A stretch of DNA of 64,000 nucleotides, from the NCBI RefSeq assembly GCF_000253115.1, contig NC_014145.1, positions 3,474,001 through 3,538,000 on the forward strand. The letters run 5' to 3'. Position numbers and translations under genes: made by a program. Under the pieces are notes generated by a model. The model saw only the letters and a program-made list of their open reading frames with translations. It ran no database searches and had not been told where the DNA came from. This document shows positions 2,272 through 64,000 of the stretch, piece after piece. Numbering within the stretch: position 1 is the stretch's first letter; each line of letters starts with the position of its first letter. This DNA comes from Thiomonas arsenitoxydans. GTDB taxonomy: Bacteria; Pseudomonadota; Gammaproteobacteria; Burkholderiales; Burkholderiaceae_C.

Positions 2272-4010
<1,739 letters not shown>

Positions 4011-45431: not shown

Positions 45432-46706
45432 TCACTGCACCACGCCCGCACGCTCGAGCATGGCGTGCAGCAGCACATTGGCCCCGGCGGTGATGTGCTC
45501 GGGCTTGGCGTCCTCGATCTCGTTGTGGCTGATACCGTCTTTGCAGGGGATGAAAATCATCCCGGCGGGGGCCAGGCGCGCGGCGTACACCGCGTCATGC
45601 CCGGCGCCGGAAACTGCAGGCATGTGCGAGTAGCCCAGTTGCGCGGCGGCACGCTGCACCGCGTTAATGCAGTCTGCGTGAAAGGCCTGTGCTGGATAGC
45701 TCGACACCAGGTCGATCTGGATGGACAGGCCGCTGTCATCGGCCAGCTTGCGGGCGTAGGCCTTGACCTCGTCGGCCATCTGGTTGACGGCGGCGTCGCT
45801 GCCGTTGCGCAGGTCGATGCTGAACTTCACTCGCCCCGGAATCACGTTGCGGCTGTTGGGATGAACCTGCACCATGCCCACGGTGCCGCGTCCGTGCGGC
45901 GCGTGGCGCAGGGCGCAGGCCACGACCTCCTGCATCAAGTGCGTGGCCACTTGCAACGCGTCCTTGCGCAGGGCCATCGGTGTCGGCCCGGCATGCGCCT
46001 CCATGCCAGTGACGGTGCAGTCGAACCAGCGGATGCCGAGCACGCCTTGCACTACGCCGATGGTCACCTCGGCATCTTCGAGCACCGGACCTTGTTCGAT
46101 GTGAGTCTCGAAGTAGGCGCCCAGGGGATGATCGCCCGGCTCCTGCTCACCGATATAGCCAATGCGCTCCAGTTCGCCCCGCACCGTCTTGCCCTCGGTG
46201 TCGGTGGCGGCGTAGGCGTGCTCCAGGGTGAAGGCCTTGGCGAACACGCCAGAGCCCATCATCACCGGCACGAAGCGCGAACCTTCCTCGTTGGTCCAGA
46301 ACGCCACCTCGATGGGCGCTTCGGTTTGAATGCCGTGGTCATTGAGCGTGCGCACCACCTCCAGCCCGGCGAGCACGCCGTAGTTGCCATCGAACTTGCC
46401 GCCTGTCGGCTGGGTGTCGATGTGGCTGCCGGTCATGATGGGCGGCAGCGCGTTGTTGCGGCCGGCGCGGCGCATGAAGCCGTTGCCGATCTTGTCGATG
46501 GTCACGCTCATGCCGGCCTCGCGCGCCCAGGCCAGCACCAGATCGCGGCCCTGTTTGTCGAGATCGGTCAGGGTGAGACGGCACACGCCGCCCTTGGGCG
46601 TGGCGCCAATCTGCGCCAGTTCCATGAGCGATTGCCACAGGCGCTCGCCATTGACGCGCAATACGGCGGCAGCGGTCTGCGACGGAAGATCAGTGCGGGT
46701 GTTCAT
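45432..46706 (-). CDS. hyuC: Zn-dependent N-carbamoyl-amino-acid / beta-ureidopropionase-type amidohydrolase
   Basis: A 424-residue M20-fold amidohydrolase. Metal and substrate motifs are GSHIDTQPTGGKFDGNYGVL, FWTNEEGSRFVPVMMGSGVF, YFETHIEQGPVLEDAEVTIG and SGAGHDAVYAA. It hydrolyses N-carbamoyl-beta-alanine (or N-carbamoyl amino acids) to the amino acid, CO2 and ammonia. It is last in the preT-preA-dihydropyrimidinase operon, which fits the third step of reductive uracil breakdown. L-carbamoylase specificity cannot be excluded from sequence alone. Confidence 0.92.
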   Translation of the reverse strand: MNTRTDLPSQTAAAVLRVNGERLWQSLMELAQIGATPKGGVCRLTLTDLDKQGRDLVLAWAREAGMSVTIDKIGNGFMRRAGRNNALPPIMTGSHIDTQPTGGKFDGNYGVLAGLEVVRTLNDHGIQTEAPIEVAFWTNEEGSRFVPVMMGSGVFAKAFTLEHAYAATDTEGKTVRGELERIGYIGEQEPGDHPLGAYFETHIEQGPVLEDAEVTIGVVQGVLGIRWFDCTVTGMEAHAGPTPMALRKDALQVATHLMQEVVACALRHAPHGRGTVGMVQVHPNSRNVIPGRVKFSIDLRNGSDAAVNQMADEVKAYARKLADDSGLSIQIDLVSSYPAQAFHADCINAVQRAAAQLGYSHMPAVSGAGHDAVYAARLAPAGMIFIPCKDGISHNEIEDAKPEHITAGANVLLHAMLERAGVVQ

Positions 46707-46734
46707 CAGGTCATCCTCCAGAGAAAGCGGAGCA

Positions 46735-49535
<2,801 letters not shown>

Positions 49536-49543
<8 letters not shown>

Positions 49544-50906
49544 GGGAAAGTCCTCGATGTTGGACGGCGGCAGCTCCCGCAGCGCTCAGTTGCGCGTGAA
49601 TGGAGTGCGCCGCGCGCTTGCCGTGTTCCACTGCCTCGACGGTAAGTTCCAGACCGCCAATGCAGTCTCCCCCCGCCCATACGCCGGGCAACGCCGTGCG
49701 GCCCTGCTCATCGGCAACGATGCGGCCCTGCGCCAGTTCCAGCCCGGCGTCGCGCAGCCAGGGGTTGCCCAGCGTCTGGCCGATGGCCTTGAGCACCATA
49801 TCGGCCTGCAGCATCTCGGTCTCACCCGTGGATGCCAGACGACCCTCGCGCAGCGTCTGGCGCGCGAGGCGCACCGCCTGCACCTTGCCCTGCGCGCCCA
49901 GAACTTCTTCCGGCGCCAGCCAGTGGCGGATGGTCACACCATGCGTCTGCGCCCAATCCTGCTCCTCCTTCGACGCGGACATGCTGGACGCGCCCCGGCG
50001 GTAGACAATGGTCACCTGCTCCGCCCCGAGCAGGCTGGCCTGCACGGCGGCGTCAACCGCCGTCATGCCGCCGCCGATGACCACCACGCGGCGGCCGATC
50101 GGGATCTGCTCCAGATGCCTGGCCTGCCGCAGCGCGGCGATGAAGTCCACCGCGTCGTCCACGCCATACAGCGTCTCGCCAGGAATGCCGAGCGTGTGCG
50201 TGTCGGCCAGGCCGATGGCGAGGAATACGGCGTCGAACTCCGCGCGCAAGGCCTGAAGTTGCAGCGCCGATTCAAGGCGCCAGCCGTTGTGCAGCGTGAT
50301 GCCGCCAATGCTCAGCAGCCAGGCCACCTCTTTCTGTGCGAAATCGCCTGTGGTCTTGTAGGCCGCCAGACCATATTCATTCAGGCCGCCGGGTTTGGCG
50401 CGCGCATCGAACATCTCCACGTCATAGCCCTGGCGCGCCAGCGTGTGGGCGCAGGCCAGGCCAGCAGGCCCGGCGCCAATCACGGCAACGCGCCGACCCA
50501 CAGGTGCCGCGCGTTGGAACACCTGCGGCCGCGGACTGCGCATCAAGGCATCGACCGCGTGGCGCTGCAGTCGGCCAATGGCCACGGGCACGCCCTGCTG
50601 GGTATTGCGCACGCAGACCTTTTCACAGAGGTCTTCGGTCGGACAGACTCGCGCGCACATGCCGCCCAGCGGGTTGGCGTCGAGTATGGCTTGCGCCGCG
50701 CCACGCAAATTGGCATCCGCAATGCGGCGGATGAAGGAGGGGATGTCGATCTGCGTCGGGCAGGCGCGGGCGCAGGGCGCATCAAAGCAATACAGGCAGC
50801 GCTCGGCTTCGAGCAGCGCCTGCGTCGCGGTCAGCGGCGGAACGGCATCGGCAAAGCGCGCGGCAAGTTCGGCGGCTTGCTCGGCGGGCAAAAGAAGAGA
50901 GGACAC
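49536..50906 (-). CDS. preT: NAD-dependent dihydropyrimidine dehydrogenase subunit PreT
   Basis: PreT takes electrons from NADH through FAD and Fe-S clusters to PreA. The 456-residue protein has CLYCFDAPCARACPTQIDIP and CARVCPTEDLCEKVC (cluster cysteines), VAVIGAGPAGLACAHTLARQ (FAD) and VVVIGGGMTAVDAAVQA (NADH). GTG 50906 is preferred: CGGAG is 8 nt upstream and the protein then begins MSSLLLPAEQ; a TTG at 50936 is the alternative. It is first in the operon, with sigma54 promoter and RutR-like operator just upstream. Confidence 0.94.
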
Positions 50907-50938
50907 GCTGACGACTCCGGCTGGCTTCAAGTTCAAAC

Positions 50939-51291: not shown

Positions 51292-52823
51292 TCAGCAGCA
51301 ACCCAGAAAGGCCCTGCTCTCGTAGAACGGCCCTAAGTCTTCTGCCATCATCATGACAACTTCGCGCCAGCGTCCGCATTCGGCATGACTTCCAAGGCGC
51401 GAGCGCGCCTGCGCAAGAAGTTCGGCATAAAGAGCCGGCTCGTCGAGACTGAGAACCTTGCCCCGATGGACGATGGTCCGCCCATCAATGATGACCTGCT
51501 CGATGTGGCGCCCCTTGGCGCGTGCCAGCACGTAGTCCAGTGGGTCGATGTCGGAAAACAGGGCATCATCGTCCAGATCGGCGTGATCCAGAATCAACAA
51601 ATCCGCAGGGGCGCCTGGCGCGATGCGCCCCGCCAGGGATTCGCGCCCCGCATCGGGGCCGCGCACCACGCGGTCGCCATTCGCCGCAGCAAATGCCCAG
51701 AGCTGGGCCCGCGTCATGGTGACGTCATAACCCCAGCCGCGATGCAGCGCGTAGGCCAGGCGCATTTCGCGCAAGGCATCGTCGTCCTCATCCAGCGCCA
51801 TGCCATCCAGCCCCATCGCCACGCGGCAACCGGCACGCAACATCTCCGCGACTGGCGCCACGCCCGATTTCAAGCCGAGGTTGGAACTGGTGTTGACTGC
51901 TATGGTGACGCCCCGCTCGGCAAGAAGCGCCAATTCCTGCGGCCGCGCCCAGGTGCAATGCGCCAGCGTCAGGCGCGGGCTCAACAGACCGATAGCATCG
52001 AGATAGGTCAAGATGCCCTGTGGATAGGTGTGGTCGGCCCATTCGCGCTGGTAGCGGGTTTCGAGCAAATGCATGTGCACGGGACGCCCGGTGTCGCTCG
52101 ACGCCTGCGCGATGGACTGGAGCAACGCATCGCTGCACCACTGCACCCCGGTGGGGCCATACTGCACCGTGACATGCGAACCGTAGCCGCCTTGCGCCAC
52201 CATGTCCGCGACCGCGTCGACCAGCGCGAGCTGACCCGCAGGGTCTGGACTTGCATGCATGCCCAGGCGTTGCGCCACCAGGGACCGAATCTCAGGCCGC
52301 AGCGCGTTCAACGCGGCGTCATCACTGCTGTAGGCGATGCCCTGGCGGTCGCGCAAGACAATGGCGAAGCCGATGTGGATCCCAACGTCGCGCGCGGCGC
52401 GCGCAACAGCCTGCGCCTCGTCCACGTAGGACGAGAGCCCCTGAACACACGTGTAGTGCACCATCAACCGAGCCACCCCATGCCGCACCGCGCGTGCGAA
52501 ACAGGTGGCTGCGGACAGATAGGGGTCGACTCCTGGCACCAAACCGAGAAACGGCAACCAGCTCTCCAATGGTTGCTCGAACGCGCCGAGTGACGCGCTA
52601 CGGAAGGTGCGCGCAGGTCGTGTGCATTACTCAGCGCGGGCAGTACAAGCTTGCTGCAAGCCACGTCCTCTTGCTGTTGCGGCACGATGTCCTGAATCTT
52701 GCCCTGTGCGATGTGAATGCGCATGTGCGACTGTGCGTCCTCGCTTCCGGGCGAGGCTAGCAGCCAGCGACAATCCACCAGTGAGGCCAATTGATGCAAC
52801 GGTTCGTCGGCCATGCGCGTCAT
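51292..52823 (-). pseudogene. Amidohydrolase (AtzA/guanine-deaminase-like) frameshifted by a 1-nt loss
   Basis: The N-terminal part (from ATG 52823 or 52814: MADEPLHQLASLVDCRWLLA to LVLPALSNAHD) is in one frame and the rest (RTFRSASLGAFEQPLESWLP onward) in another. The junction GAC-CTGCGCGC near 52612-52628 becomes GAC-CAT-GCG-CGC, giving NAHDHARTFRS with the metal-binding His-x-His-like motif, if a single A is restored. The remainder has VHMHLLETRYQREWADHTYP, LTLAHCTWARPQELALLAER and MGLDGMALDEDDDALREMRL, so all other metal ligands are intact. Substrate unknown. It is last in the ureide operon. A single-base sequencing error must be considered. Confidence 0.82.
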
Positions 52824-52830
52824 CTCGCCG

Positions 52831-53520
52831 TCACGATACGCCGCGCAACACCGCATCAAGCTTGCAGGTCCAGCCGACGATGCCACCCTGCGCGGCGATC
52901 ATCTCCAGCGTGGCCTGCTTGAAATACGGGAAATAGCTGGCCGTGGCCTCTTCGACCAGGAGGCAGTCATAGCCCCGGTCGTTCGCCTCGCGCATGCTGG
53001 TCTGCACACAGACCTCGGTGGTCACGCCACCGAAGATCAGGTGGGTGATCGCACGGCGCTGCAGGATCTCCTGCAGTCCGGTGTCGTAGAACGCGCCCTT
53101 CCCGGGTTTGTCGAGCTCCACCTCGCCTGCGATAGGTTGCAGCGCATCGATGATGGCGTTACCCGGTTCACCGCGAACCAGAACGCGCCCCATCGGCCCC
53201 ATGTCGCCGATTCGCAGGCTGGGCTCGCCCCGGCAGCGCTTCGCGGGCGGGCAGTCGGACAGGTCGGGCGCATGCGACTCACGCGTGTGCACCACCAGCA
53301 AACCATACGTGCGCGCCCAAGCCAGCAGCCTGGCGGCGGGCTCCACCGCCTGCGCAAGTTGCCCGACGTCGTTGCCAAGGGTTTCGCCGAAGCCGCCGGG
53401 CTCGATGAAATCGCGCTGCATATCGATGAGCACCAGCGCCGTGTTGCGCAGATCGCAAGCGAACGGGCCGGGACGTGCCCGCACGCGCAGGGTCATCAGG
53501 GTCGTCTCGGACGCACTCAT
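52831..53520 (-). CDS. Isochorismatase-fold cysteine amidohydrolase (biuret/ureidoacrylate hydrolase type), copy 2
   Basis: A 229-residue hydrolase. Catalytic Asp in [17 protein letters not shown], Lys in [15 protein letters not shown] and Cys in [19 protein letters not shown] give the Asp-Lys-Cys triad of the family that includes biuret hydrolase, RutB and N-carbamoylsarcosine amidase. DCPPAKR and [16 protein letters not shown] match its neighbour, to which it is clearly paralogous. ATG 53520 overlaps the neighbour's stop (ATGA). Confidence 0.88.
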
Positions 53521-54200
53521 ACCTTCTCCCAGACTTGCAGCAAGGTGGCGGCATCGCTGACGGCGCCGAACACGCCACCCTGCATGGTGACCATCTTGAT
53601 CGCTGCTGCGTGATTTCCGGCGTCGGTTGCGCCGCAGCAGTCGGTGAGCAGCAGACATTCGAAGCCGCGGTCGTTTGCCTCGCGCATGGTGGTGTGCACA
53701 CACACGTCGGTGGTAATGCCGGTGAGCACCAGATTGCGGATGCCCCGCGTGTGCAGAATCAATTCCAGATCAGTGGCGCAGAAACTACCCTTGCCCGGCT
53801 TGTCGATGACAATCTCGCCCGGCAGCGGCGCCAGTTCGGGAATGATCTCCCAGCCAGGCTCTCCACGCACCAGAATCTTGCCGCAGGGCCCGGGGTCGCC
53901 GATGCCCGCACCGATGCGCTGGCTGCGCCAGCGTTTGTTGGCGGGAAGATCCGACAGGTCTGGACGATGTCCTTCGCGTGTGTGAATGATGGTGCAACCC
54001 ACGGCGCGCATCGCCGTGAGAACCTTGCGGATGGGCTCGATGGGCGCACGGGTCAGGGAGAGGTCGTAGCCCATGGCGTCGACATAGCCGCCGACGCCAC
54101 AGAAATCGGTTTGCATGTCGATGACCACCAGAGCCGTATTGCCGGGACGCAGGTCACCGTCGAAGGGCCAGGGATAGGGATGCGACGCGATTGACGGCAT
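53517..54200 (-). CDS. Isochorismatase-fold cysteine amidohydrolase (biuret/ureidoacrylate hydrolase type), copy 1
   Basis: A 227-residue hydrolase with Asp in [20 protein letters not shown], Lys in [19 protein letters not shown] and the nucleophile Cys in [20 protein letters not shown]. The [20 protein letters not shown] segment is typical of the ureidoacrylate/biuret-type branch. ATG 54200 overlaps the formamidase stop. Together with its paralogue downstream it could act on two successive ureides, or form a heteromer. Substrate not assignable from sequence. Confidence 0.88.
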
Positions 54201-55222
54201 CAGACCTCCGGCTCGAAAGGGTTGGGCTCGGGGCCGCGATAGCTTCGGCTTGGTGCGGCGAAACCACAGGGCGTGCCGTCGCGCACTTGGACTGTGCCAT
54301 CCCACGGCAGTTTGTAGCGCCCCGCGACCATGTCGTGCATGAAGGTGTAGGGGCAGTCCTGTGCCCCGCCCTGCACCGCAACGTAGCCGCGGTGATAGAG
54401 CTGGTAGGGATTGTTCTCCACGCCCCAGACCGCGCGCGCCTCGCGCACCAGATCCGGCCGTAGTTCGGCAGTGATGATCTCGTCGGGACGATTGCCGCCG
54501 ACGGTGATCACCGTCCCGTCGAAGTTGCAGAACATGCCCTCACCCATCGAATCGAAGTTGCCGTCACTGCCACAAAGACAGACGCTGGCGGTAATGGCGA
54601 GGTTCTGGAACGCATTAGCCTGGTTGGTAATCGTCCAGGCGTGGCGAATAGGCGCGGTGTAGCCGGCTGTGCGCAGAATGATTTCCGCTCCCTTGTAGGC
54701 TGCCTCGCGCGCCATTTCGGGAAACATGCCGTCGTGGCAGATGATCAGTCCGAGTTTGCAGCCCTTGGGACCGTCGCACACCGGGATGCCCACATTGCCG
54801 GGCTCCCAGGCTTCCACGGGAACCCAGGGGTGCAGCTTGCGGTAGTACAGCCTGATCTCCCCCTGATCATCGATGATCAGACCCGTGTTGTACGGATTGC
54901 CGTGCGGGTTGAACTCCATGATGGAGAAGCAGCCCCAGATCCGATGCGCCACACAAGAAGCCTTGAACGCAGTCACTTCCGGCCCATCCAGCGACACCAT
55001 CAACTCGGGCGCCGTGCTCATCGACAAGCCGTGCAGGGCGTACTCCGGGAACACGACGAGATCCATCGTGCCCAAGTTGCGCCGCGCCTTGCCGACCAGG
55101 GCACAGATGCGCTCAGCCTGCGCGGCGAGTTGCACGGGCGTCTCCACCACAGGCAGTTGCAATTGCACCAGGCCGACGACTACCCCATGCGGAGACTTGT
55201 TCAGACCGCCGAGTCCACTCAC
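54200..55222 (-). CDS. amiF: Formamidase (nitrilase fold)
   Basis: AmiF hydrolyses formamide to formate and ammonia. The 340-residue protein has the Glu-Lys-Cys triad: [28 protein letters not shown] and [20 protein letters not shown]. The opening [20 protein letters not shown] and [15 protein letters not shown] are AmiF-specific compared with general aliphatic amidase. GTG 55222 is preferred, with GGGAG 8 nt upstream; a TTG two codons earlier is possible. It follows the binding-protein gene by 56 bp in the same operon. Confidence 0.93.
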
Positions 55223-55278
55223 GTTCAATACTCCCTGCTTGGAGGATGCTGTTCAGACTATGCCGGGCGTGCAGGCAA

Positions 55279-56349
55279 TCACTTGGTATTGCCAATCACG
55301 CCCTTGACAAAGAAGTCCATCGACGCGATTTTGTCCGGGCTCAGGCTCTGCCCTTTGGCGGCCAGTACCGTGCCATCCTGCGCCTCGATCGGGCCGGCCC
55401 ACACATGCAGCTTGCCGTCCTCGATTTCCTTCTTCTTCGCTTCGATCAACGTGCGCGTGGCCGCTTCGACAGACGGCCCAAACGGCGCCAACTGGGTGGT
55501 TCCGGACTTCAGATTGCCGTGAATGGCCTCGGACTTCCAGGTACCGGCCTCGACCTGCTTGACCACGTCCGCCATGACCGGTCCCCAGTTCTCGACTACC
55601 CCGGTCAGCCAGCCCTGCGGATCGAACTTCATATCGTTGAAGTGGTAACCCACCACCTTGATGCCGCGCTTCTTCGCCGCCTCGATCACCGGAATCGGCG
55701 AGTCGACGTGCGACGCAACAACATCCACGCCTTGGTCGACCAGGGCATTCACCGAAGCCACGTCTTTGGCCGGATCGTTCCACGAGCCCGTGTAAACAAC
55801 GGTCACTGTCGCTTTGGGATTGACCGACTGCGCACCCAAAGCCAAGGCATTGATGTTCTGCAGCACTGGCGGAATCGGGTGCGCCGCTACAAAGCCGATC
55901 TTGCCGGTCTTGGTCGCCTTGCCCGCCGCGATGCCAGCCAGATACATGGCCTCGTAGGTTTCAGCGGAATAGGTGCCCAGGTTCGCGGCGCGCTTGTCGC
56001 CGTAGCAATGCATGAAAGTTACCTTGGGGTATTTCTTCGCCAATTCGAGTGCATACGACAGATAGCCATAACTCGTAGCGAAGATGATCTTGTCGCCGGC
56101 GCCGATCATGCGCTCCATCGCCTGGGTTACCTGCGCATTCTCGGGCACGTTTTCTAGGAAGTTGGTCTTCACGCCCGGCACATCTTTTTGCACATACAGC
56201 CGACCGGCGTTCTGCGCTTCGTTATAGCCGCCGTCGGTTTTGGCGCCGACGTAGACATAGCCCACGGCGATGTCGGCCAGGGCTGGTTGGGCTGAGAGGG
56301 TGGTGGCCAGACCGAGGGCTGCAGCTAGGGCGAGAAGACGAGATTTCAT
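55279..56349 (-). CDS. BMP-family ABC substrate-binding protein
   Basis: A 356-residue periplasmic protein with a signal peptide (residues 1-25, ending ALAD). ADIAVGYVYVGAKTDGGYNE and GDKIIFATSYGYLSYALELA place it in the BMP/PnrA-like family, whose members bind nucleosides, purines or related ring compounds. ATG 56349 has GGAGAA upstream. The operon supplies two permeases and a double ATPase. The neighbouring amide and ureide hydrolases suggest a nitrogen-rich ligand. Confidence 0.92.
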   Translation of the reverse strand: MKSRLLALAAALGLATTLSAQPALADIAVGYVYVGAKTDGGYNEAQNAGRLYVQKDVPGVKTNFLENVPENAQVTQAMERMIGAGDKIIFATSYGYLSYALELAKKYPKVTFMHCYGDKRAANLGTYSAETYEAMYLAGIAAGKATKTGKIGFVAAHPIPPVLQNINALALGAQSVNPKATVTVVYTGSWNDPAKDVASVNALVDQGVDVVASHVDSPIPVIEAAKKRGIKVVGYHFNDMKFDPQGWLTGVVENWGPVMADVVKQVEAGTWKSEAIHGNLKSGTTQLAPFGPSVEAATRTLIEAKKKEIEDGKLHVWAGPIEAQDGTVLAAKGQSLSPDKIASMDFFVKGVIGNTK

Positions 56350-56396
56350 GTTGTTCTCCAGTGCAAAGGGGACAAGAAAGTAGATGGAAGGACCAG

Positions 56397-57320
56397 TCAA
56401 GCCATGCCACGAAACACGCCGACGAGTTCTTGTGGCATGGACGTTCCGCGCTGGCTGGCCCGGTAGCTCAGCAGCAGAACAACGAGCGGCACCAGGTACG
56501 GCAAGGTGCCAAGCAGGTACGGTGAGATGTCGGCCCCCATGGACTGCAGCCGTAGCGCCAGCGCTTCCGACAGGCCGTAGATCAGCGCCACCGGCAGCGC
56601 CAGCCAGGGGTTCCAGCGTGCAACGATGACCAGACCGACAGCTAGGAGGCCGCGACCCGCCGTCATCTGCTCGACCCAGGTGCGGGTGTAGTCCACCGAC
56701 AGCGCCGCTCCCGCGAGTCCGGTGAACAAGCCGCCGGTAAGAATGCCCGCAATGCGCAGCGCGACGGGCTTCTTGCCCAACATACGCAATGCGTCGGCCG
56801 ACTCGCCAGTGGCGCGCCACACCAGGCCCCATTGCGTGCGGTAGAGAAACAGGCCGCAGAGCAGCACCAGAATCAGCGCCAGATACACGGTGGGCGTGAG
56901 CTGGCCGAGAAAGCTGCCAACGATGGGCAAGTGCCCCAGCCAGCCGTGCGCGAGGCTGTGAAAACCGGAAATCTGCTGTCCCACCAGTGGTGCGCCGTAG
57001 AACGCTGACAGGCCGTTGCCGAGAAAGAAAATGGCCAGCCCGCTTGCTATCTGGTTGACCCCCAATCCAAGGCAAAGCAGCGCGTGAACCGACGACAAGG
57101 CCATGCCTGCCAGCGCCCCCACCAGCATCCCCAACCAGGGGCTGCCACTGGCGTAGGTGACTGCAAAGCCTGCGGCGGCACCCACCAGCATCTGTCCCTC
57201 GACGCCTAGGTTGACGATACCGGTGCGCTGCGTCAGCATTTCGCCCAGCATCGCCAGCAACACCGGCGTGGCCATGAGCAAAGCGATGGACAAGAGCCCA
57301 AACCAGGCGGCAATGTTCAT
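56397..57320 (-). CDS. ABC permease of BMP-type importer (second)
   Basis: A 307-residue permease with about eight hydrophobic segments. TPVLLAMLGEMLTQRTGIVN, LGVEGQMLVGAAAGFAV and LGVNQIASGLAIFFLGNGLS are typical of the YufQ/NupQ-like permeases. It overlaps the first permease (stop and start share 4 bp) and precedes the binding protein. Confidence 0.92.
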   Translation of the reverse strand: MNIAAWFGLLSIALLMATPVLLAMLGEMLTQRTGIVNLGVEGQMLVGAAAGFAVTYASGSPWLGMLVGALAGMALSSVHALLCLGLGVNQIASGLAIFFLGNGLSAFYGAPLVGQQISGFHSLAHGWLGHLPIVGSFLGQLTPTVYLALILVLLCGLFLYRTQWGLVWRATGESADALRMLGKKPVALRIAGILTGGLFTGLAGAALSVDYTRTWVEQMTAGRGLLAVGLVIVARWNPWLALPVALIYGLSEALALRLQSMGADISPYLLGTLPYLVPLVVLLLSYRASQRGTSMPQELVGVFRGMA

Positions 57321-58363
57321 GCGACGCTCCTGTGTTTGGCGCGCCAGGCCCCCACGCCGAGCACGCTGATGAACAGCAACGCCTGCATCACCAAGGTGTT
57401 GGAAAACGGCAGTTGGGCGAAAAGCTGCAAGGCATCGCCCGAGGACAGCAACCCGCCCATGATCAACGCCAACGGAATGATGCGCAGAAAGTTTTGCCCC
57501 GCCAGCCAGGCGACCAGAAAGCCGATATAGCCGTAGCCAGACGAGATGTCGGGCTGCAGGTGAGTCTGCACATTGGCCGCCTGCACCCAGCCCGCAAGGC
57601 CGGCAAGACTGCCCGCCAGCGCCATGACGGCAATCGCATGGCGGGTGTAGGAGAGCCCGGCCATGCGCGCCACGCGCGGGTTGCTTCGAAGCAGCGACAA
57701 GCCCGTGCCCCAGCGGCTCTTTTCCACCAGCACATGCAGCACGATGGCGAGCAGCACAGCCAGCACCAGCGCCCAGTTACTGGACAGGGCGCCGAGATGC
57801 AAGGACGGAAACTTGGCAGCGTCAGGAAAGGCGATGGTGGCCGGCCAGCCGAGATTGGCCGCATCTTTCCACGGCCCATACACCGCGTATTCCACAATCT
57901 TGATGGCGATGTAGTTCATCAGGATGGTGACGATGGTTTCGTTCACGCCCAGCGCCGCACGCAGCACGCCGGGAATGGCGCCCCAAAGGGCGCCGCCCAG
58001 CAGCGCCAGCAGCAGTGCTGCGGGAAACAGTTCCCAGAAGGGTGCAGCCGTTATGGCCAGCACTACCGCGGTGCCGGTGAGCGCGCCGAAATACAACTGC
58101 CCTTCGGCCCCCACGGACACCAGGCCCATGCGCGCGGGCAAGGCCGTGGCCATGGCGCAAAACAGAATGGGGATGGTCTTGCTCAGCGTGGTGTTGGTGG
58201 AGAAGGCATTGCCGAACGCGCCCTGCACCATCTGACTGAAAATCTGCAACGGCGCATAGCCGTTGAGCTGGAAGAACACCGCCGCCAGCAACAGAAACAC
58301 GAGTGTTCCAGCCACCGGCACAAACGCCCGATCGACCCACGGCAGTGCCAGAAACGATTTCAT
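57317..58363 (-). CDS. ABC permease of BMP-type importer (first)
   Basis: A 348-residue permease of the YufP/NupP type. TIPILFCAMATALPARMGLV and SVGAEGQLYFGALTGTAVVL are conserved, and LGVNETIVTILMNYIAIKIV marks the family. It overlaps the ATPase gene by 4 bp. With the following gene it forms the membrane channel. Confidence 0.93.
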   Translation of the reverse strand: MKSFLALPWVDRAFVPVAGTLVFLLLAAVFFQLNGYAPLQIFSQMVQGAFGNAFSTNTTLSKTIPILFCAMATALPARMGLVSVGAEGQLYFGALTGTAVVLAITAAPFWELFPAALLLALLGGALWGAIPGVLRAALGVNETIVTILMNYIAIKIVEYAVYGPWKDAANLGWPATIAFPDAAKFPSLHLGALSSNWALVLAVLLAIVLHVLVEKSRWGTGLSLLRSNPRVARMAGLSYTRHAIAVMALAGSLAGLAGWVQAANVQTHLQPDISSGYGYIGFLVAWLAGQNFLRIIPLALIMGGLLSSGDALQLFAQLPFSNTLVMQALLFISVLGVGAWRAKHRSVA

Positions 58364-59844
58364 GCAGCCTCCCCATGCGTCATCAAATGGCCAAGGCGCA
58401 CGCGGTCGGCCTCCCCCGCGGTCAGCACCCCGGCAATGCGCCCGTGATACAGCACAGCAATTCGGTGGGCATAGCGCAGCAGGTCATCCAGGTCTTCGGA
58501 TATCCACAGGATCGCGGCGCCAGCAGCAGCTTGTCGGAACAGCTCGTCATACACCGCCTGCGTCGCATGCAGGTCCAACCCCATGGTGGGATAGCACGCG
58601 ACGATGAACTGGCGCGGCTCCGACAACTCGCGTGCGATCACCAGCTTCTGCAGATTGCCGCCCGACAGGCGACCCGACGCCAGGCCGCTCTGGCGTGGGC
58701 GCACGTCATAGCGCTCCATCAGCGCATCAGCGCGTGCATCCAGCTTGGCCCAGCGCGGAAACAGCGGCAAGCGCAGCAGGCCACGCAGCGCGAGATTCAG
58801 GCTGTTGCGCATCTCTGCTGCCACGGCGTTTTTCAGCGGATATTCCGGGATATAGCCCTGGCGCGCATCGTGCGGCTGGCGAGTGTCGCGGCTGTGAAGC
58901 ACTTCGCCGTCGAGCAGCACGTCGCCCTCTTGCAAGTTCACCATGCCGGTGGCTGCGTCTGCCAACAGATCCTGCCCATTGCCCGACACCCCAGCAACCC
59001 CCAGCACTTCGCCCGGGGCGATGTCGAGGTCAATGCCCTCCAGCGACAACGATTCCGTGCTGCAGCGCAAGTTGCGCAGGCTGATGCGCGCCACCGCACT
59101 GGCTGGCGGCGCGGTCTGCGCCACCGGCTTCAAGCTGGCATCACCCACCATCAGCGTCACCAGTTTGGCGGCGTCCATACCGCGCGCATCGGCCTGCGCC
59201 ACCAGTTTGCCCGCGCGCATGACCGCCACACGATGCGCACAGGCGCGCACGTCCTCCAATTTGTGGGTGATGAACACCACGCTGCGCCCGGTATCGGCCA
59301 GCTTGCGCACCACAGCGTGCAGACGCTGCACCTCTTCAGGGGCCAGGACCGATGTGGGTTCGTCGAGGATGATCAGACGGGCGTCAAGATTGAGCACCTT
59401 GACCAGTTCCACCTGCTGCCTCTGCCCCACCGACAACTCCGAAACCAATCGCTGCGGCGCCACCCCCGGAGCAAACTCGGCCAGCAGTCGCAAGACCTTG
59501 GCGGTATTGCCGCGGCCATGCCACAACGGTGCATCGGGATAGGCCAGCAGCAGGTTATCCAGTACCGTAAGCGCGGGAATGACGCTGAACTGCTGGAACA
59601 CCATGCCGATGCCCAGGGCCATGGCGTCGCGTGGTGAAGCAATGTCCACCTCTCGTCCGCCCAGCAGCACCTGCCCGCTGTCAGCGCGGTAGTAGCCATA
59701 AAGCACCTTCATCAGTGTGCTCTTGCCCGCGCCGTTCTCGCCGAGCAGCGCCAGCACTTCACCTTCGCCAATCTCAAGCGACACGGCATCATTGGCCTGC
59801 ACCGGGCCAAAGCGCTTGCTGATGTCGATGAGCTCGACTTTCAT
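58360..59844 (-). CDS. ABC ATP-binding protein, duplicated (BMP-type importer)
   Basis: A 494-residue protein with two nucleotide-binding halves. The first has Walker A GENGAGKST, signature LSVGQRQQVELVKVL and Walker B LIILDEPTSVLAPEE. In the second half Walker A is degenerate (GVSGNGQDL) and the signature is LSGGNLQKLVIAREL, the usual asymmetry in this group. It is the first gene of the transporter operon, 153 bp after the cyclo-ligase-like gene, and that gap shows no sigma54 promoter. Confidence 0.93.
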   Translation of the reverse strand: MKVELIDISKRFGPVQANDAVSLEIGEGEVLALLGENGAGKSTLMKVLYGYYRADSGQVLLGGREVDIASPRDAMALGIGMVFQQFSVIPALTVLDNLLLAYPDAPLWHGRGNTAKVLRLLAEFAPGVAPQRLVSELSVGQRQQVELVKVLNLDARLIILDEPTSVLAPEEVQRLHAVVRKLADTGRSVVFITHKLEDVRACAHRVAVMRAGKLVAQADARGMDAAKLVTLMVGDASLKPVAQTAPPASAVARISLRNLRCSTESLSLEGIDLDIAPGEVLGVAGVSGNGQDLLADAATGMVNLQEGDVLLDGEVLHSRDTRQPHDARQGYIPEYPLKNAVAAEMRNSLNLALRGLLRLPLFPRWAKLDARADALMERYDVRPRQSGLASGRLSGGNLQKLVIARELSEPRQFIVACYPTMGLDLHATQAVYDELFRQAAAGAAILWISEDLDDLLRYAHRIAVLYHGRIAGVLTAGEADRVRLGHLMTHGEAA

Positions 59845-59997
59845 TGCACGCGCCCGAACTCAACTGGCCGGCACGTCCAACTAGGCACACTCCCCCATCC
59901 GGACGTCCGACTCAACGGCTTAGGCTGAAAGTGACCCAGCCCGCTCACATTGACTTGAATAGTTATGCACATGATCTTTTCCTGCGAACCTCATGCC

Positions 59998-60831
59998 TCA
60001 AATGTCACGGTCACTGAGCCCCACTGAGCCCTTCGGCGCCCCACCCTGCTCGATCCGCCCGCGTAGTTCGCCGAGGAACGGAATGTCACGATATTGATCG
60101 GGTTCAACCTGATCCCAGGCCACCCCATGGGGCTGTGGATAGGGTGTGTCGGTCCGAATGCTTTCTTCCTCGGTGAAGACCCAGTCCAGCGCCGAATCGT
60201 GGCCGAGCATCACCAGACGCTGCGCTGCCACGACTTGGCAGGAATGCACCGTCGTGACGATTGGGGTGCCTGCAGACAGCTTGCCAAGTTCTCGGAAGAT
60301 GCCAAGTTCAAGGTCAGCGAAACCGCCGCCCTTGCCGGTGCGCCCACCGAGACGGGTTACCGCCACGCAGCCCACCACCACCAGATCGAGAGTCGGCAGT
60401 TCCTCGAACTGCACCGGCACGCCATGAGCCACGCCTCCCTGGGAGGTTGCGGCAAGCTCGAATGAGACCTGGCGCGCGGCAAGCTGCACCGGGTCGAGCA
60501 GTACAAAGGGATAGGGACGCTCCAACTCAGGAACCGGCATATAGAGTTGCTTGCCGGCGTAAAGCGCACGCAGGCGCAGAGGAATCTGTGGCGGGTCCGG
60601 GTTGCACTTGACCACCCCTGCGTCGCGCCACATAGGGGTGGCGGCTAGGCGCCAAGCGGCTCTGTCTGCGCCGACGAAATTCGGAATGCGGCTACGCACC
60701 GGCCCCACGCCAACCTCCATACGCTCAAGCGCGAACCAGATCTCGTCACGCAAGGCGTCTTTATCACGGTTGCGGCCCGCCCAGCGCGCCGTGTCGTCTA
60801 TTGATGCTGTGGATGCGATGCTTTCGGACAT
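59998..60831 (-). CDS. 5-formyltetrahydrofolate cyclo-ligase-like (MTHFS-domain) protein
   Basis: About 277 residues. The C-terminal two-thirds resembles 5-formyl-THF cyclo-ligase: LRALYAGKQLYMPVPELERP, VVVGCVAVTRLGGRTGKGGG (the phosphate-binding GKGGG) and GFADLELGIFRELGKL. The N-terminal ALRDEIWFALERMEVGVGPV matches MTHFS-domain proteins rather than housekeeping FAU. ATG 60831 is favoured, as AAGGA is 9 nt upstream; ATG 60840 has it at zero distance. It heads the ureide transporter cluster behind its own sigma54 promoter. A folate link to the formate made by formamidase is possible but not shown. Confidence 0.75.
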   Translation of the reverse strand: MSESIASTASIDDTARWAGRNRDKDALRDEIWFALERMEVGVGPVRSRIPNFVGADRAAWRLAATPMWRDAGVVKCNPDPPQIPLRLRALYAGKQLYMPVPELERPYPFVLLDPVQLAARQVSFELAATSQGGVAHGVPVQFEELPTLDLVVVGCVAVTRLGGRTGKGGGFADLELGIFRELGKLSAGTPIVTTVHSCQVVAAQRLVMLGHDSALDWVFTEEESIRTDTPYPQPHGVAWDQVEPDQYRDIPFLGELRGRIEQGGAPKGSVGLSDRDI

Positions 60832-61009
60832 ATTCGTCATTCCTTGGAAATACGCAAGCAGCTCTTTGCAGGATCGCCGACCTGCGTCGGCGATTGCGCT
60901 GGGCTTTGTCTGGCAGGTCTGGATTCACCATCCTTGAGCGCCAGACCGGGTGCAAATAGCCTTGCCTCCAGCCTCGAACTCAACCCACCCTGACAAGTCA
61001 ACCGCAACT

Positions 61010-61025
61010 ATCTTGTGCACAAGAT
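61010..61025 (-). promoter_or_regulatory. Perfect palindrome (TTG-N4-CAA core) at the cyclo-ligase-like promoter
   Basis: ATCTTGTG-CACAAGAT is a perfect 16-bp palindrome with core TTGTGCACAA (61013-61022), beginning 7 nt after the -12 box of the minus-strand sigma54 promoter and covering its start. It matches the operators at 34960 and 61162 in core and position. Confidence 0.7.
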
Positions 61026-61029
61026 GCCA

Positions 61030-61045
61030 TGCAAGATGTGTGCCA
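61030..61045 (-). promoter_or_regulatory. sigma54 promoter of the cyclo-ligase-like gene (and probably the transporter operon)
   Basis: TGGCACA-CATC-TTGCA on the minus strand matches the consensus except for one -24 base. Predicted start near 61019, with a leader of about 180-190 nt. Confidence 0.82.
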
Positions 61046-61138
61046 TTGCCCAGTAGCAACTGCGCGGTGCGTGAAGCAAACAGCACACTGCTGCTTCCCA
61101 GTTGACTGAGTAATTTTCCCAACCCGCTTCGGCCTGAT

Positions 61139-61154
61139 TGGCACATCCATTGCA
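61139..61154 (+). promoter_or_regulatory. sigma54 promoter of atzG-atzE-atzH-gntR
   Basis: TGGCACA-TCCA-TTGCA on the plus strand, same single deviation as the divergent promoter at 61030. Predicted start near 61165, with a leader of about 180 nt before atzG. Confidence 0.82.
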
Positions 61155-61172
61155 TATCATGATGCATACAAG
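61150..61172 (+). promoter_or_regulatory. TTG-N4-CAA type operator overlapping the atzG promoter
   Basis: ATGCATACAA (61162-61171) is the operator core, 7 nt after the -12 box; with the preceding TTGCATATCATG it forms an imperfect inverted repeat. Eight bases (GCATACAA) are identical to the operator at 34960-34969 on the minus strand. The GntR regulator encoded at the end of this operon is the likely binder. Confidence 0.62.
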
Positions 61173-61279
61173 TCTGGGGCTCGCTGTCATGCTCCGTCTG
61201 TCCAGCACCCACCCGAACCCAAACACAAGTTGGAATGCATTCCGTGGCAATTGGCGCCACACGGCAGCAGTGCGCAACG

Positions 61280-61306
61280 GGCACCGCACTGGTGCAAGTT
61301 GCACCA
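61280..61306 (+). promoter_or_regulatory. NtrC-like site and two mutually exclusive hairpins in the atzG leader
   Basis: GGCACC-GCACT-GGTGCA matches the NtrC consensus TGCACC-N5-GGTGCA at 11 of 12 positions. The same GGTGC can instead pair with the next GCACC (GGTGC-AAGTT-GCACC, 61291-61305). As DNA it may be an enhancer acting on the divergent sigma54 promoters; as RNA it can form only one of the two stems. Which of these matters cannot be told from the sequence. Confidence 0.45.
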
Positions 61307-61344
61307 AACCCGCCAGATCAATCCAGTCAACATTGAGGCAAACC

Positions 61345-61551
61345 ATGCAACACACACCGACACCCTCCGCCGACGCACCGTCCCACATCGACACGGTTCG
61401 ATGCGCCGCGACACAACTCGACCTCGTGCTCACGGACGATGCCCTGCAGCGCGTCGCCGACCAATGGGCTCGCCTGCAGACCATGGCCTCCGCGCTGACG
61501 CAAGAGCCTTTGGGCATTGCAGATGAGCCCGCGCCGGTCTTTACGCCCTGA
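61345..61551 (+). CDS. atzG: AtzG-like small subunit (DUF4089) of 1-carboxybiuret hydrolase
   Basis: A 68-residue protein without a catalytic domain. VRCAATQLDLVLTDDALQRV and the closing LGIADEPAPVFTP match the DUF4089 pattern (a short helical hairpin, then an extended tail ending EPAPVF), known from AtzG, the GatC-like partner needed to fold and stabilise AtzE. ATG 61345 has GAGG upstream. atzE follows after 50 bp, as in the cyanuric-acid plasmid clusters. Too short for domain calls by eye alone, so much of the confidence comes from context. Confidence 0.8.
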   Translation: MQHTPTPSADAPSHIDTVRCAATQLDLVLTDDALQRVADQWARLQTMASALTQEPLGIADEPAPVFTP

Positions 61552-61601
61552 ACCCTGTCACATAGCCCGACCCAACTGTCCTTCCGCCGAGAAGACCTTC
61601 C

Positions 61602-62981
61602 ATGACGACCTCCAATTCATCCCTTGCGCTGCAAGTCGCCGGCCCCCTGGCTCAGGCCATTGCCTCCGGTGAGATCTCCGCCTTGGAAGTAACCGAACAG
61701 GCCTTGGCGCGTATCGCCGCAGTTGATGGCGCCATCAACGCCTTCACCGCCATCACGGCGCAGCGCGCACGCGACGAAGCGCGCAGAATCGACGCCCTGC
61801 GTGCGCAAGGCGCCCCGTTGCCGCCACTGGCCGGCGTGCCCTATGCGGTAAAGAACCTGTTCGACATCTTCGGGCTAACCACGCTCGCCGGCTCGAAACT
61901 ACTGGCGACGCAGTCACCCGCCACAAACGACGCTGTGCTGGTGCAGCGCATGCAGGCCGCAGGCGCCGTCCTCGTAGGCGCGTTGAATATGGATGAATTC
62001 GCCTATGGCTTCACCACCGAAAACAGCCACTACGGACCGACGCGTAACCCGCATGACCCAACACGCAGCGCCGGTGGATCCTCGGGTGGAAGCGCCGCAG
62101 CGATTGCTGCGGGCATGGTGCCTCTCGCACTGGGTTCAGACACCAACGGTTCGATCCGCGTACCGTCCTCGCTATGCGGCATCTTCGGCATCAAGCCCAC
62201 GTTTGGCAGGCTGTCACGCAGTGGCAGCTACCCCTTCGTCTACAACCTCGACCACCTCGGCGCTTTCGCGCGCAGCGTGGACGACCTTGCCCTGTGCTAC
62301 GAAGCGCTTTGCGCGGGCGAACCGCCTCGATCTGAAGCCTTGCTGCGGCAGAGCGACACCCCTTTGCGCGTCGGTCAGCTCGGCGGCTATTTCGACGATC
62401 ACGCCGGACCCCAAGCGCGTGAGGCCGTAGGCATGGCCGCCGAGGCCCTCGGCGCACGCGACCCAGTGAACTGGGTTGGCGTGGAAGCCGCCCGTTCCGC
62501 AGCCTTCCTCATCACAGCAGCCGAAGGCGGGCAACTGCACCTGGACCATCTGCGCACCCAGTACGACCTGATGGAGCCCCTTTCACGCGACCGCCTCGCG
62601 GCCGGGTCCATGCTCCCCGCCGCCTGGTATGCACAGGCCCAGCGCGTACGTGCTCGCTTTCATGCCCGCGCTCTGGAACTTTTCAGTCGTTACGACCTGC
62701 TCATCGCTGCGGCGACGCCGGTCTCGGCACAGCCCCTGGACAGCGAGGGCTTCGAACTCGACGGCCGCATGCTGCCCACCCGCGCCAATATGGGTCTGCT
62801 CACCCAGCCCATTTCCTGCATTGGCCTGCCCGTGGTCGCCGCTCCGATCCGGCATGCCCCGGGAGCCATGCCTATCGGCGTGCAACTCATCGCCCCGCCC
62901 TGGCGCGAGGACATCGCCCTGCGTGCAGCGAAAATACTTGAATCTGCAGGCGTGGCCTTCGCCACCCCCGTTCCAATCTGA
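61602..62981 (+). CDS. atzE: AtzE-like amidase (1-carboxybiuret hydrolase)
   Basis: A 459-residue amidase-signature enzyme. The Ser-cisSer-Lys triad is visible: Lys in [20 protein letters not shown], cis-Ser in [20 protein letters not shown] and nucleophile Ser in [34 protein letters not shown] is a strong AtzE-like block compared with GatA. In Pseudomonas ADP AtzE deaminates 1-carboxybiuret to 1,3-dicarboxyurea together with AtzG. AtzG and AtzH neighbours support that assignment here; other ureide amides remain possible, since no cyanuric acid hydrolase (AtzD) is in the window. Confidence 0.88.
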
Positions 62982-63006
62982 CAGCACACCAACCGCCAAT
63001 CTCGAC

Positions 63007-63396
63007 ATGACCCCATCCGCGATCAACCTCCCCGACGTCCTGGCCGAAGTCGAGGACATGTTCGCTCGCTACGAACAGGCGCTGGTGAGCAACGACGTCG
63101 CCAGCCTTGACGCCCTGTTCTGGAATTCGCCGCATACCCTGCGCTATGGTGCAACCGAGAACCTCTATGGATTCGACGCCATCGCGGCGTTTCGGGCCCA
63201 ACGTCCGGGCCAAGGACTGGCGCGACGCATTCGCCACCGCTCCATTACCACCTTCGGCCGTGATTTTGCCGTGGCGAACGTTGAATTCGAACGCAGCAAC
63301 AGCCCGCGCGTCGGACGCCAAAGCCAGACCTGGGTGCGCTTTGAGCAAGGGTGGCGCGTGGTTGCCGCGCATGTGAGCTGGATGGACACATTATGA
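63007..63396 (+). CDS. atzH: AtzH-like protein (DUF3225, SnoaL-type fold)
   Basis: A 129-residue protein of the NTF2/SnoaL-like fold. [40 protein letters not shown] and [14 protein letters not shown], then [20 protein letters not shown] and [10 protein letters not shown] are the DUF3225 pattern. AtzH of Pseudomonas ADP converts 1,3-dicarboxyurea to allophanate with loss of CO2 and ammonia. It follows atzE by 25 bp and its stop overlaps the regulator start (ATGA), so the four genes are one unit. No allophanate hydrolase (AtzF/DUR2) is seen in the window. Confidence 0.87.
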
Positions 63397-64000
63397 CAAC
63401 TGCCGCAGCACGCACGAGCCACGTTGCAATCAAGGCCAAGCCCGCGCCCAAGGCGGCGTCGCGCGCAGAGGAAATCTACGCCCGCTTGCGCGAAGAAGTG
63501 TTTGAGTTTCACCTGTTACCCGGCCAGCGCTTCACGGAAACGGAGTTGGCCGAGCACTATGTCGTATCCCGCACCCCGGTGCGCGAAGCACTGCTGCGCT
63601 TGCAGGCTGAAGGGTTGGTACGCGGCTATTTCCGCAGCGGCTGGGAAGTCGTGCCGATCGACTTCGCTCGTTTCGACCATCTGTACGAATTGCGCAAGCT
63701 CGTTGAAGTGCACGCCGTTCGCAAGCTTTCCATGCGTGAACTGGCCACTGAAACGCAAACCATGCTGGATGCGCTGGCAGCATCCTGGATCGTGGACAAA
63801 TCGGCGCGTCTGAGTGATGCCCGAAAGATCTCATTGCTGGATGAGGCCTTCCATACCAATCTGGTGGCTGCCGCGGGCAACCCAGAGATTCTGCGCGTGC
63901 ATGCGGAAATCACCGATCGCATCCGCATCATCCGCCGCCTCGACTTCACCTATACCCATCGCGTCAGCACCACCTACGACGAGCATGCCGCCATCCTGCG
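63393..64000 (+). CDS. GntR-family regulator, FCD subfamily (3' part beyond window)
   Basis: At least 202 residues, open to the window end. After a 25-residue basic leader ([20 protein letters not shown]) comes the winged helix: [40 protein letters not shown]. The FCD ligand domain follows, with [40 protein letters not shown] and [16 protein letters not shown] proteins usually bind small carboxylic acids with a metal. The start overlaps atzH. It is the best candidate for the protein binding the three TTG-N4-CAA operators. Confidence 0.92.

Follow-up and report, generated by a model that had tools for sequence, protein, structure and literature searches.

Breakdown of triuret has been described in Herbaspirillum sp. 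BH-1 and Rhizobium leguminosarum 3841, where the genes trtA, biuH and atzF make up an operon (PMC7948467), and a trtA-biuH-atzF-trtB arrangement with BMP transporters has been proposed for nitrifiers (PMC12625717). Carboxybiuret is produced by TrtA and by AtzD alike (PMC7948467), and AtzGE, which acts on it, is encoded with AtzH in the atzDGEHF operon of Pseudomonas sp. ADP (PMC6219798; NC_004956). AtzGEH clusters without AtzD were already reported in 2018, those of the Variovorax type with AtzF, ABC transporters and amidases, and that of Thiomonas in a "unique" context. They were found to be far commoner than the cyanuric acid pathway; the available text of that paper, which predates TrtA, gives no role for them and states that genomic contexts give little evidence of AtzH function (PMC6219798). 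Here, we analyzed a 64,000-nucleotide stretch of Thiomonas arsenitoxydans (the window; C2:3474001-3538000 of a 3.79-Mb genome), at whose end an AtzGEH trio stands divergent from a gene row encoding TrtA, BiuH and a BMP-type importer.

As judged from homology, residues and gene neighbourhood, this locus probably lets the Thiomonas-like bacterium scavenge nitrogen by taking up and degrading triuret and biuret, nitrogen-rich compounds related to urea. As listed in Table 1, the minus-strand row encodes, in transcription order, an MTHFS-like protein, an ABC ATPase, two permeases, a BMP binding protein, AmiF, BiuH, TrtA and an amidohydrolase, while AtzG, AtzE, AtzH and a GntR regulator running beyond the window follow one another on the plus strand. 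Since neighbouring genes overlap by 1 to 4 nucleotides (ATPase/permease A, permease A/permease B, AmiF/BiuH and BiuH/TrtA), co-transcription of the minus-strand row is likely. Past position 64000, the cluster continues through GntR to an NMT1/SsuA-type ABC transporter and an alpha/beta hydrolase (L002:15352-19809). An earlier, sequence-only reading of this DNA had placed the genes correctly but cut the cluster short at 64000, leaving out the GntR and NMT1/SsuA-type transporter genes that belong to it. Its description of a ureide/amide nitrogen-scavenging locus with a dicarboxyurea intermediate, distinct from the cyanuric acid route, is borne out: the named genes are all present, those for BiuH, AmiF, AtzG, AtzE and AtzH passing their family cut-offs, the AtzGEH trio is divergent from the transporter row, and every gene but the frameshifted amidohydrolase is whole. 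Two further points, that the substrate was unknown and the gene set without precedent, are superseded, the former by triuret and biuret, proposed from the TrtA and BiuH matches, and the latter by operons of TrtA and BiuH (with or without AtzF), BMP loci and AtzGEH clusters without AtzD already in print.

Like the triuret operon, the locus joins TrtA and BiuH to a BMP-type ABC importer in a single row and has allophanate as the meeting point. It differs in the divergent AtzGEH genes, in an AtzF encoded elsewhere, and in the additional AmiF, MTHFS-like and broken amidohydrolase genes. The slot after TrtA holds no small gene here, an AtzH-like gene in Paraburkholderia, and a cupin gene in Rhizobium etli p42e, after a hydrolase presumed to be TrtA. 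We do not claim that the AtzH-like gene of Paraburkholderia is TrtB; the same slot holds the cupin in R. etli.

The two isochorismatase-type hydrolases appear to be TrtA and BiuH, the published specificity residues included. The predicted BiuH passes the curated NF050097 cut-off, whereas the predicted TrtA does not (243.6). The closest structure of the latter is 6xix, the TrtA of Herbaspirillum BH-1 (PMC7948467), at 305 bits versus 211 for the best biuret hydrolase (6xjm). For the window BiuH, the best PDB matches form the 6azo/5bk6/6azs/6azn-6azq group, titled "Putative amidase", and 6AZQ is the Rhizobium BiuH (PMC7948467). The positions reported to separate the two enzymes are F35, N41, E160, Q202 and I205 in TrtA and Y, Y, D, Q and V in BiuH (PMC7948467). 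Aligned by eye in that numbering, the window TrtA carries all five TrtA residues together with the Asp-Lys-Cys triad, and the window BiuH carries the BiuH-type Y, Y, D and V at the discriminating positions. The nearest named match of the window TrtA, 93% identical, is in a metagenome-assembled genome (MAG) of Thiomonas intermedia (L047) in the genome collection, a search from which records of its own genome were possibly excluded. BiuH relatives were also seen on 178 plasmid records, among them 121 of Rhizobium, 9 of Klebsiella, 7 of Enterobacter and 3 of Citrobacter; 47 were typed as conjugative.

What sets this locus apart from the triuret/biuret pathway is the AtzGEH branch. The best solved relative of the window AtzE is 6c62, itself an AtzE (530 bits) and the sole PDB sequence matched at 1e-60, and AtzH is closest to the ADP AtzH 6bjt (162 bits), keeping Tyr22, Arg46, Arg63, Arg66 and Arg73, all the pocket residues checked. 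Like the atzDGEHF operon, the locus has the AtzG, AtzE and AtzH families and carboxybiuret as the presumed AtzE substrate. Unlike in that operon, TrtA would replace AtzD as the carboxybiuret source, and AtzF lies outside. If the reactions published for named relatives apply to the window genes, triuret and/or biuret would be brought in by the BMP-type ABC importer, and TrtA would convert triuret into carboxybiuret and one ammonia. AtzGE would then release a second ammonia to give 1,3-dicarboxyurea, which AtzH would decarboxylate to allophanate. Carboxybiuret, with a published half-life of about 20 min, could also decarboxylate spontaneously to biuret, to be hydrolyzed to allophanate by BiuH. 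AtzF, encoded with urea carboxylase about 50 kilobases (kb) downstream, would end the route by converting allophanate to ammonia, and any urea that escapes could go to the urease encoded in this window. With AtzGEH, triuret breakdown would thus have an enzyme-driven alternative to the spontaneous reaction of carboxybiuret.

We then surveyed the gene neighbourhood in the 80 best named TrtA loci, mostly of Burkholderiales, with up to 10 kb per side and several cut by contig ends. BiuH was present in 73, a BMP protein in 68 (at least 35% identity), AtzF in 38, AmiF in 28 and AtzE in 26. Rarer neighbours were the NMT1 binding protein (12 loci), the MTHFS-like protein (2) and the amidohydrolase (1). 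A complete (100%) genome of the same genus (G005) and three MAG loci (L048-L050) show the window's divergent arrangement again. In the latter three, a single cluster unites AtzF with the AtzE-AtzH and ABC-BiuH-TrtA sides, and AtzF adjoins GntR. These loci, together with the TrtA survey, confirm that the gene set is kept together in other genomes, as the earlier reading had supposed. AmiF, the MTHFS-like protein and the amidohydrolase were not detected in the G005 and L048-L050 clusters. Because the arrangement recurs there without these three, they seem to be accessory, and the core seems to consist of TrtA, BiuH, the importer, AtzE-AtzH, GntR and AtzF. As a separate observation, a protein of about 527 amino acids shares the cluster with TrtA and AtzE in L042, L133, L134 and L220, and is annotated as a "regulator" in L133 and L134.

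The association of AtzE with TrtA was examined in 300 evenly drawn Burkholderiales genomes, the Thiomonas genome included, which were not chosen by TrtA and in which each protein was searched separately (AtzE, E ≤1e-120; TrtA, E ≤1e-65, with BiuH-like second matches at 1e-59 at best). AtzE was found in 39 genomes, TrtA in 45 and both in 26, against 5.9 expected (Fisher p = 4e-16), and by genus (n = 135) the numbers were 21, 30 and 16 (p = 7e-9), statistics that ignore kinship among genomes. The two genes lie on one contig with a gap of less than 15 kb in 16 of the 26 genomes (11 genera), the other 10 having them on different contigs, and in 12 genomes the gene centres are no more than 2.2 kb apart. 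Around the 39 AtzE genes, in stretches of up to 20 kb (five under 15 kb, some cut by contig ends), TrtA was the neighbour in 16, AtzD in 3, HpxW in 1, and AtzF without any of these in 13. The last 6 loci have none of the four, and 2 of them have BiuH 1.3 kb off. That TrtA and AtzD both make carboxybiuret would explain why AtzGEH follows either of them.

Divergent transcription of the triuret and AtzGEH rows could also mean that the intergenic region serves two nitrogen operons that are independent of each other, the substrate of AtzGEH entering through the downstream NMT1-type ABC transporter. Four genomes (G161, G175, G260 and G273) have AtzE with an NMT1 transporter and neither TrtA nor BiuH in the stretch examined, and the 13 loci with AtzF as the only one of the four neighbours are in line with such a module. 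We nevertheless regard this explanation as unlikely, given the co-occurrence of TrtA with AtzE, the 12 loci with closely spaced gene centres, and the divergent pairing seen again in G005 and L048-L050.

A tree of 47 AtzE sequences, comprising the 39 of the even sample and 8 references and rooted at the midpoint only, replaced an earlier one in which 47 of 55 AtzE rows came from TrtA-linked loci. TrtA-, AtzD- and AtzF-linked copies are interleaved in it. The TrtA label requires 10 changes, compared with a mean of 14.7 for shuffled labels (4 of 500 shuffles were as low), and is thus clustered yet far from a single clade. The AtzD-linked copies of pADP-1 and P. aeruginosa fall in a clade with one TrtA-linked copy (100/100). 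A second clade, made up of TrtA- and AtzF-linked copies, has the two hpx references as its sister group (96/93). Such a topology agrees with a single enzyme activity put to use in different settings, although it does not prove the order in which these arose.

The hpx genes of Klebsiella and Serratia deserve attention in this context, as HpxX, HpxY (of the AtzE family) and HpxZ are homologous to AtzG, AtzE and AtzH. The window trio could accordingly be an oxalurate module of purine breakdown that came to lie beside a triuret operon by chance: NCBIfam calls AtzH "HpxZ", and the window AtzE shares 56% identity with the hpx copy of Klebsiella. That label cannot tell the two pathways apart, however, since it is also attached to the AtzH gene of pADP-1 (NC_004956) and its model also covers the AtzH type found without AtzE (154.4 versus a cut-off of 135); it is therefore no evidence for oxalurate, and "oxalurate catabolism protein HpxZ" is an unsafe annotation name for AtzH-type genes. 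Moreover, the two hpx reference AtzE copies form a long-branched clade of their own, HpxW accompanies AtzE in only the 1 locus mentioned above, and, unlike in the hpx systems, HpxW (Serratia protein query) was not found in this genome (G000), nor in G005 or in the 83% complete same-genus genome G012, whereas the positive control G085 matched. With HpxW not found and the HpxZ label shared by pADP-1, the oxalurate reading was rejected as very improbable.

To return to triuret breakdown, AtzH-type proteins may fall into two kinds. We compared 107 AtzH rows (105 of them distinct and a few sharing a genome), counting a locus as lacking AtzE when the stretch examined, shortened in some loci by contig ends, held no match of at least 48% identity and 300 residues. 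Tyr22, Arg46, Arg63 and Arg73 are invariant in all 107. Position 66, part of the pocket into which dicarboxyurea was docked (PMC6219798), holds Arg in 63 of the 64 rows whose locus has AtzE and in none of the 43 whose locus lacks it, the latter having Cys (30), Leu (8), Ala (3), Ser (1) or Gln (1). All 43 lie in loci with TrtA and BiuH, and comprise 33 of Paraburkholderia/Caballeronia/Burkholderia/Cupriavidus type, 8 Variovorax loci and 2 others; because they fall mostly in few lineages, independent changes of Arg66 are few. On the AtzH tree, which has few columns and an unsettled bootstrap, AtzE and Arg66 changed together in 2 independent pairs on supported branches and in 3 when all best-tree branches were counted; both supported pairs run in the same direction in every pairing, too few for significance. 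The AtzH-type protein of Paraburkholderia xenovorans, encoded in a TrtA cluster (Bxe_B1374; L099:10690-11058), is the structural-genomics orphan 2OWP.

These data led us to a broader proposal, which we advance tentatively and consider somewhat short of an even chance: carboxybiuret from TrtA may be a main, and possibly the original, natural substrate of the widespread AtzGEH, later borrowed by the atrazine/cyanuric acid operon. AtzE-linked AtzH with Arg66 might act on dicarboxyurea, and the AtzE-less AtzH of triuret clusters, without Arg66, on carboxybiuret, giving two interchangeable routes to allophanate, with 2OWP belonging to the second kind. The charge at position 66 could fit this division, as dicarboxyurea has a second carboxylate where carboxybiuret has an amide. 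The AtzGEH trio known from herbicide breakdown may thus normally serve the breakdown of triuret and biuret. A link of AtzGEH to TrtA would offer a concrete, testable answer to what the widespread AtzGEH clusters do, and would give the 2OWP structure a candidate function. In the literature examined, as far as its available text goes, this link is not stated, while the locus type with BMP importer, BiuH and TrtA is already described; PMC7948467 names AtzEG as an enzyme for the TrtA product, and its available text mentions no co-occurrence with TrtA. Among open-licence papers, which leave most subscription papers outside, triuret and dicarboxyurea occur together in PMC7948467 alone, and formamidase and biuret hydrolase in none.

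Several observations weigh against the triuret assignment or this broader proposal. AtzGE may be redundant, because BiuH is also present; AtzF is absent from the AtzGEH cluster here; and the ligand of the BMP importer is a prediction. Among the 39 AtzE loci, 23 showed no TrtA in the stretch examined, which contig ends shortened in some cases. The AtzE tree is not sorted by neighbour, and the window AtzE lies outside any exclusively TrtA-linked clade. One AtzE-linked AtzH (L236) is without Arg66. In addition, the five AtzH variants that the available text of PMC6219798 names as impaired include neither Arg66Ala nor Arg66Lys, so that Arg66 does not look essential for catalysis.

As the sequence-only reading had noted, AtzD and AtzF are not in the window. 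No full cyanuric acid pathway was found just beyond it either. AtzF was located at C2:3587929-3589599, about 50 kb past the window (807 bits versus a cut-off of 511), where urea carboxylase and the two urea amidolyase associated proteins are encoded in the same row. A protein query gave no AtzD in G000, G005 or G012, whereas all three positive controls (G120, G192 and G309) matched. The locus could still be viewed as the remnant of an s-triazine (cyanuric acid) pathway after loss of AtzD, as the genome encodes AtzGEH, BiuH and AtzF and has a TRZ/ATZ-type amidohydrolase gene that is broken. Besides the negative AtzD searches, the position that produces carboxybiuret would be filled by TrtA, and we consider a remnant extremely unlikely. 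The triazine reading was rejected on the AtzD result.

The accessory genes raise a different question. AmiF, by family clearly a formamidase, has the formamidases 5g3o and 2dyu as its best solved structures and occurs in 7 of 16 AtzE loci with TrtA versus 0 of 23 without. A TrtA activity of 0.3% on formylurea has been reported (Table 2 of PMC7948467), and AmiF possibly stands beside TrtA because cleavage of formylurea should leave formamide. We speculate that TrtA/BiuH clusters carry AmiF as a side enzyme, which may deal with formamide released by TrtA or BiuH from formylated analogues such as formylurea.

The MTHFS-like protein belongs to the PF01812 family and scores below the cut-off for true MTHFS (TIGR02727; 24.7 versus 84.9). 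We take it to be a COG0212-type protein, a label with which its motifs agree. A role in ordinary folate metabolism was rejected on that score and on the presence of a true MTHFS elsewhere in the genome (124.8 bits). At E ≤1e-20 its own genome is the sole match among 300 of the order, and at 1e-15 it is matched in 3 of 398 genomes in the phylum, namely its own, G622 (57%) and G548 (35%). Of the 8 copies seen at 56% identity or more, 5 share a locus with BiuH and/or TrtA (the window, L047, L098, L203 and L205), and the other 3 are in LysR-MTHFS-BMP-ABC rows without BiuH or TrtA, one of them beside thiamin genes. COG0212 proteins are of unknown function with a link to thiamin (PMC4120688, citing Pribat 2011); unlike the thiamin-linked paralogue, the window gene lies in a triuret row, its relatives being beside BMP importers and one next to thiamin genes. 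The protein thus recurs in a few such clusters, without a place in the triuret scheme. In the L203 cluster, which is of the triuret type and lies on an Allorhizobium pseudoryzae plasmid, the MTHFS-like gene comes immediately after TrtA, and an AtzD/barbiturase-like ring-opening hydrolase is encoded between BiuH and the ABC ATPase.

The N- and C-terminal parts of the amidohydrolase are in different frames, with the break between 52569 and 52614, and the gene is one open frame in the closest sister locus, L047. Since a 55% identical relative adjoins AtzD in G309, the ancestral substrate may have been a triazine or similar ring. It is conceivable, then, that the true substrate of the locus bears a formyl group or is a triazine or pyrimidine, AmiF, the amidohydrolase and the MTHFS-like protein taking the first steps and TrtA and BiuH acting on ring fragments. 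The restriction of AmiF to TrtA-linked loci among the AtzE loci, the AtzD-linked relative of the amidohydrolase, the pyrimidine genes next on the same strand, and the MTHFS-like genes adjoining BMP importers in plasmids can be read in this way. We hold it to be decidedly unlikely, as the three accessory genes were not detected in the G005 cluster, the searches gave no AtzD, and the amidohydrolase gene is disrupted in the window. As for the formamide-level C1 unit of the sequence-only reading, AmiF and the MTHFS-like protein turn up again in such clusters, but there is no sign that a formyl unit comes off the main substrate. Formamidase and the MTHFS-like protein are recurrent passengers outside the published triuret scheme, as given in the available text of the literature examined.

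Table 1. Genes of the predicted triuret/biuret locus, in window positions; gene starts are our choice
Feature	Position	Strand	Evidence or remark
MTHFS-like protein (5-formyl-tetrahydrofolate cyclo-ligase paralogue), first of row	59998-60840	-	PF01812, 70.2 bits
ABC ATPase, BMP-type importer	58360-59844	-	Overlaps next gene by 4 nucleotides
ABC permease A	57317-58363	-	
ABC permease B	56397-57320	-	
BMP-family substrate-binding protein, predicted triuret/biuret receptor	55279-56349	-	PF02608
AmiF, putative formamidase	54200-55228	-	NF009803, 542.8 versus cut-off 406
BiuH, predicted biuret hydrolase	53517-54200	-	NF050097, 424.5 versus cut-off 370
TrtA, predicted triuret hydrolase, overlapping BiuH by 4 nucleotides	52831-53520	-	Best PDB match 6xix, 305 bits
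TRZ/ATZ-type metal amidohydrolase, frameshifted	51292 to about 52823	-	
AtzG-like subunit	61345-61551	+	PF13318, 43 bits versus cut-off 24
AtzE, predicted 1-carboxybiuret hydrolase	61602-62981	+	NF006631, 639.6 versus cut-off 461
AtzH, predicted dicarboxyurea decarboxylase	63007-63396	+	HpxZ/AtzH model, 208.1 versus cut-off 135
GntR-family regulator	63351 to beyond 64000	+	PF00392 and PF07729

Directly downstream of the minus-strand row and on the same strand, the reductive pyrimidine genes for PreT, PreA, dihydropyrimidinase and carbamoylase occupy 45432-50936. They are also present in the sister genome G012 and were not detected in the 30 kb around the G005 cluster. The urease alpha gene is at C2:3476275-3478002 (window 2275-4002; 953 bits), so that urease, pyrimidine breakdown and the triuret locus are all encoded inside one 64-kb window.

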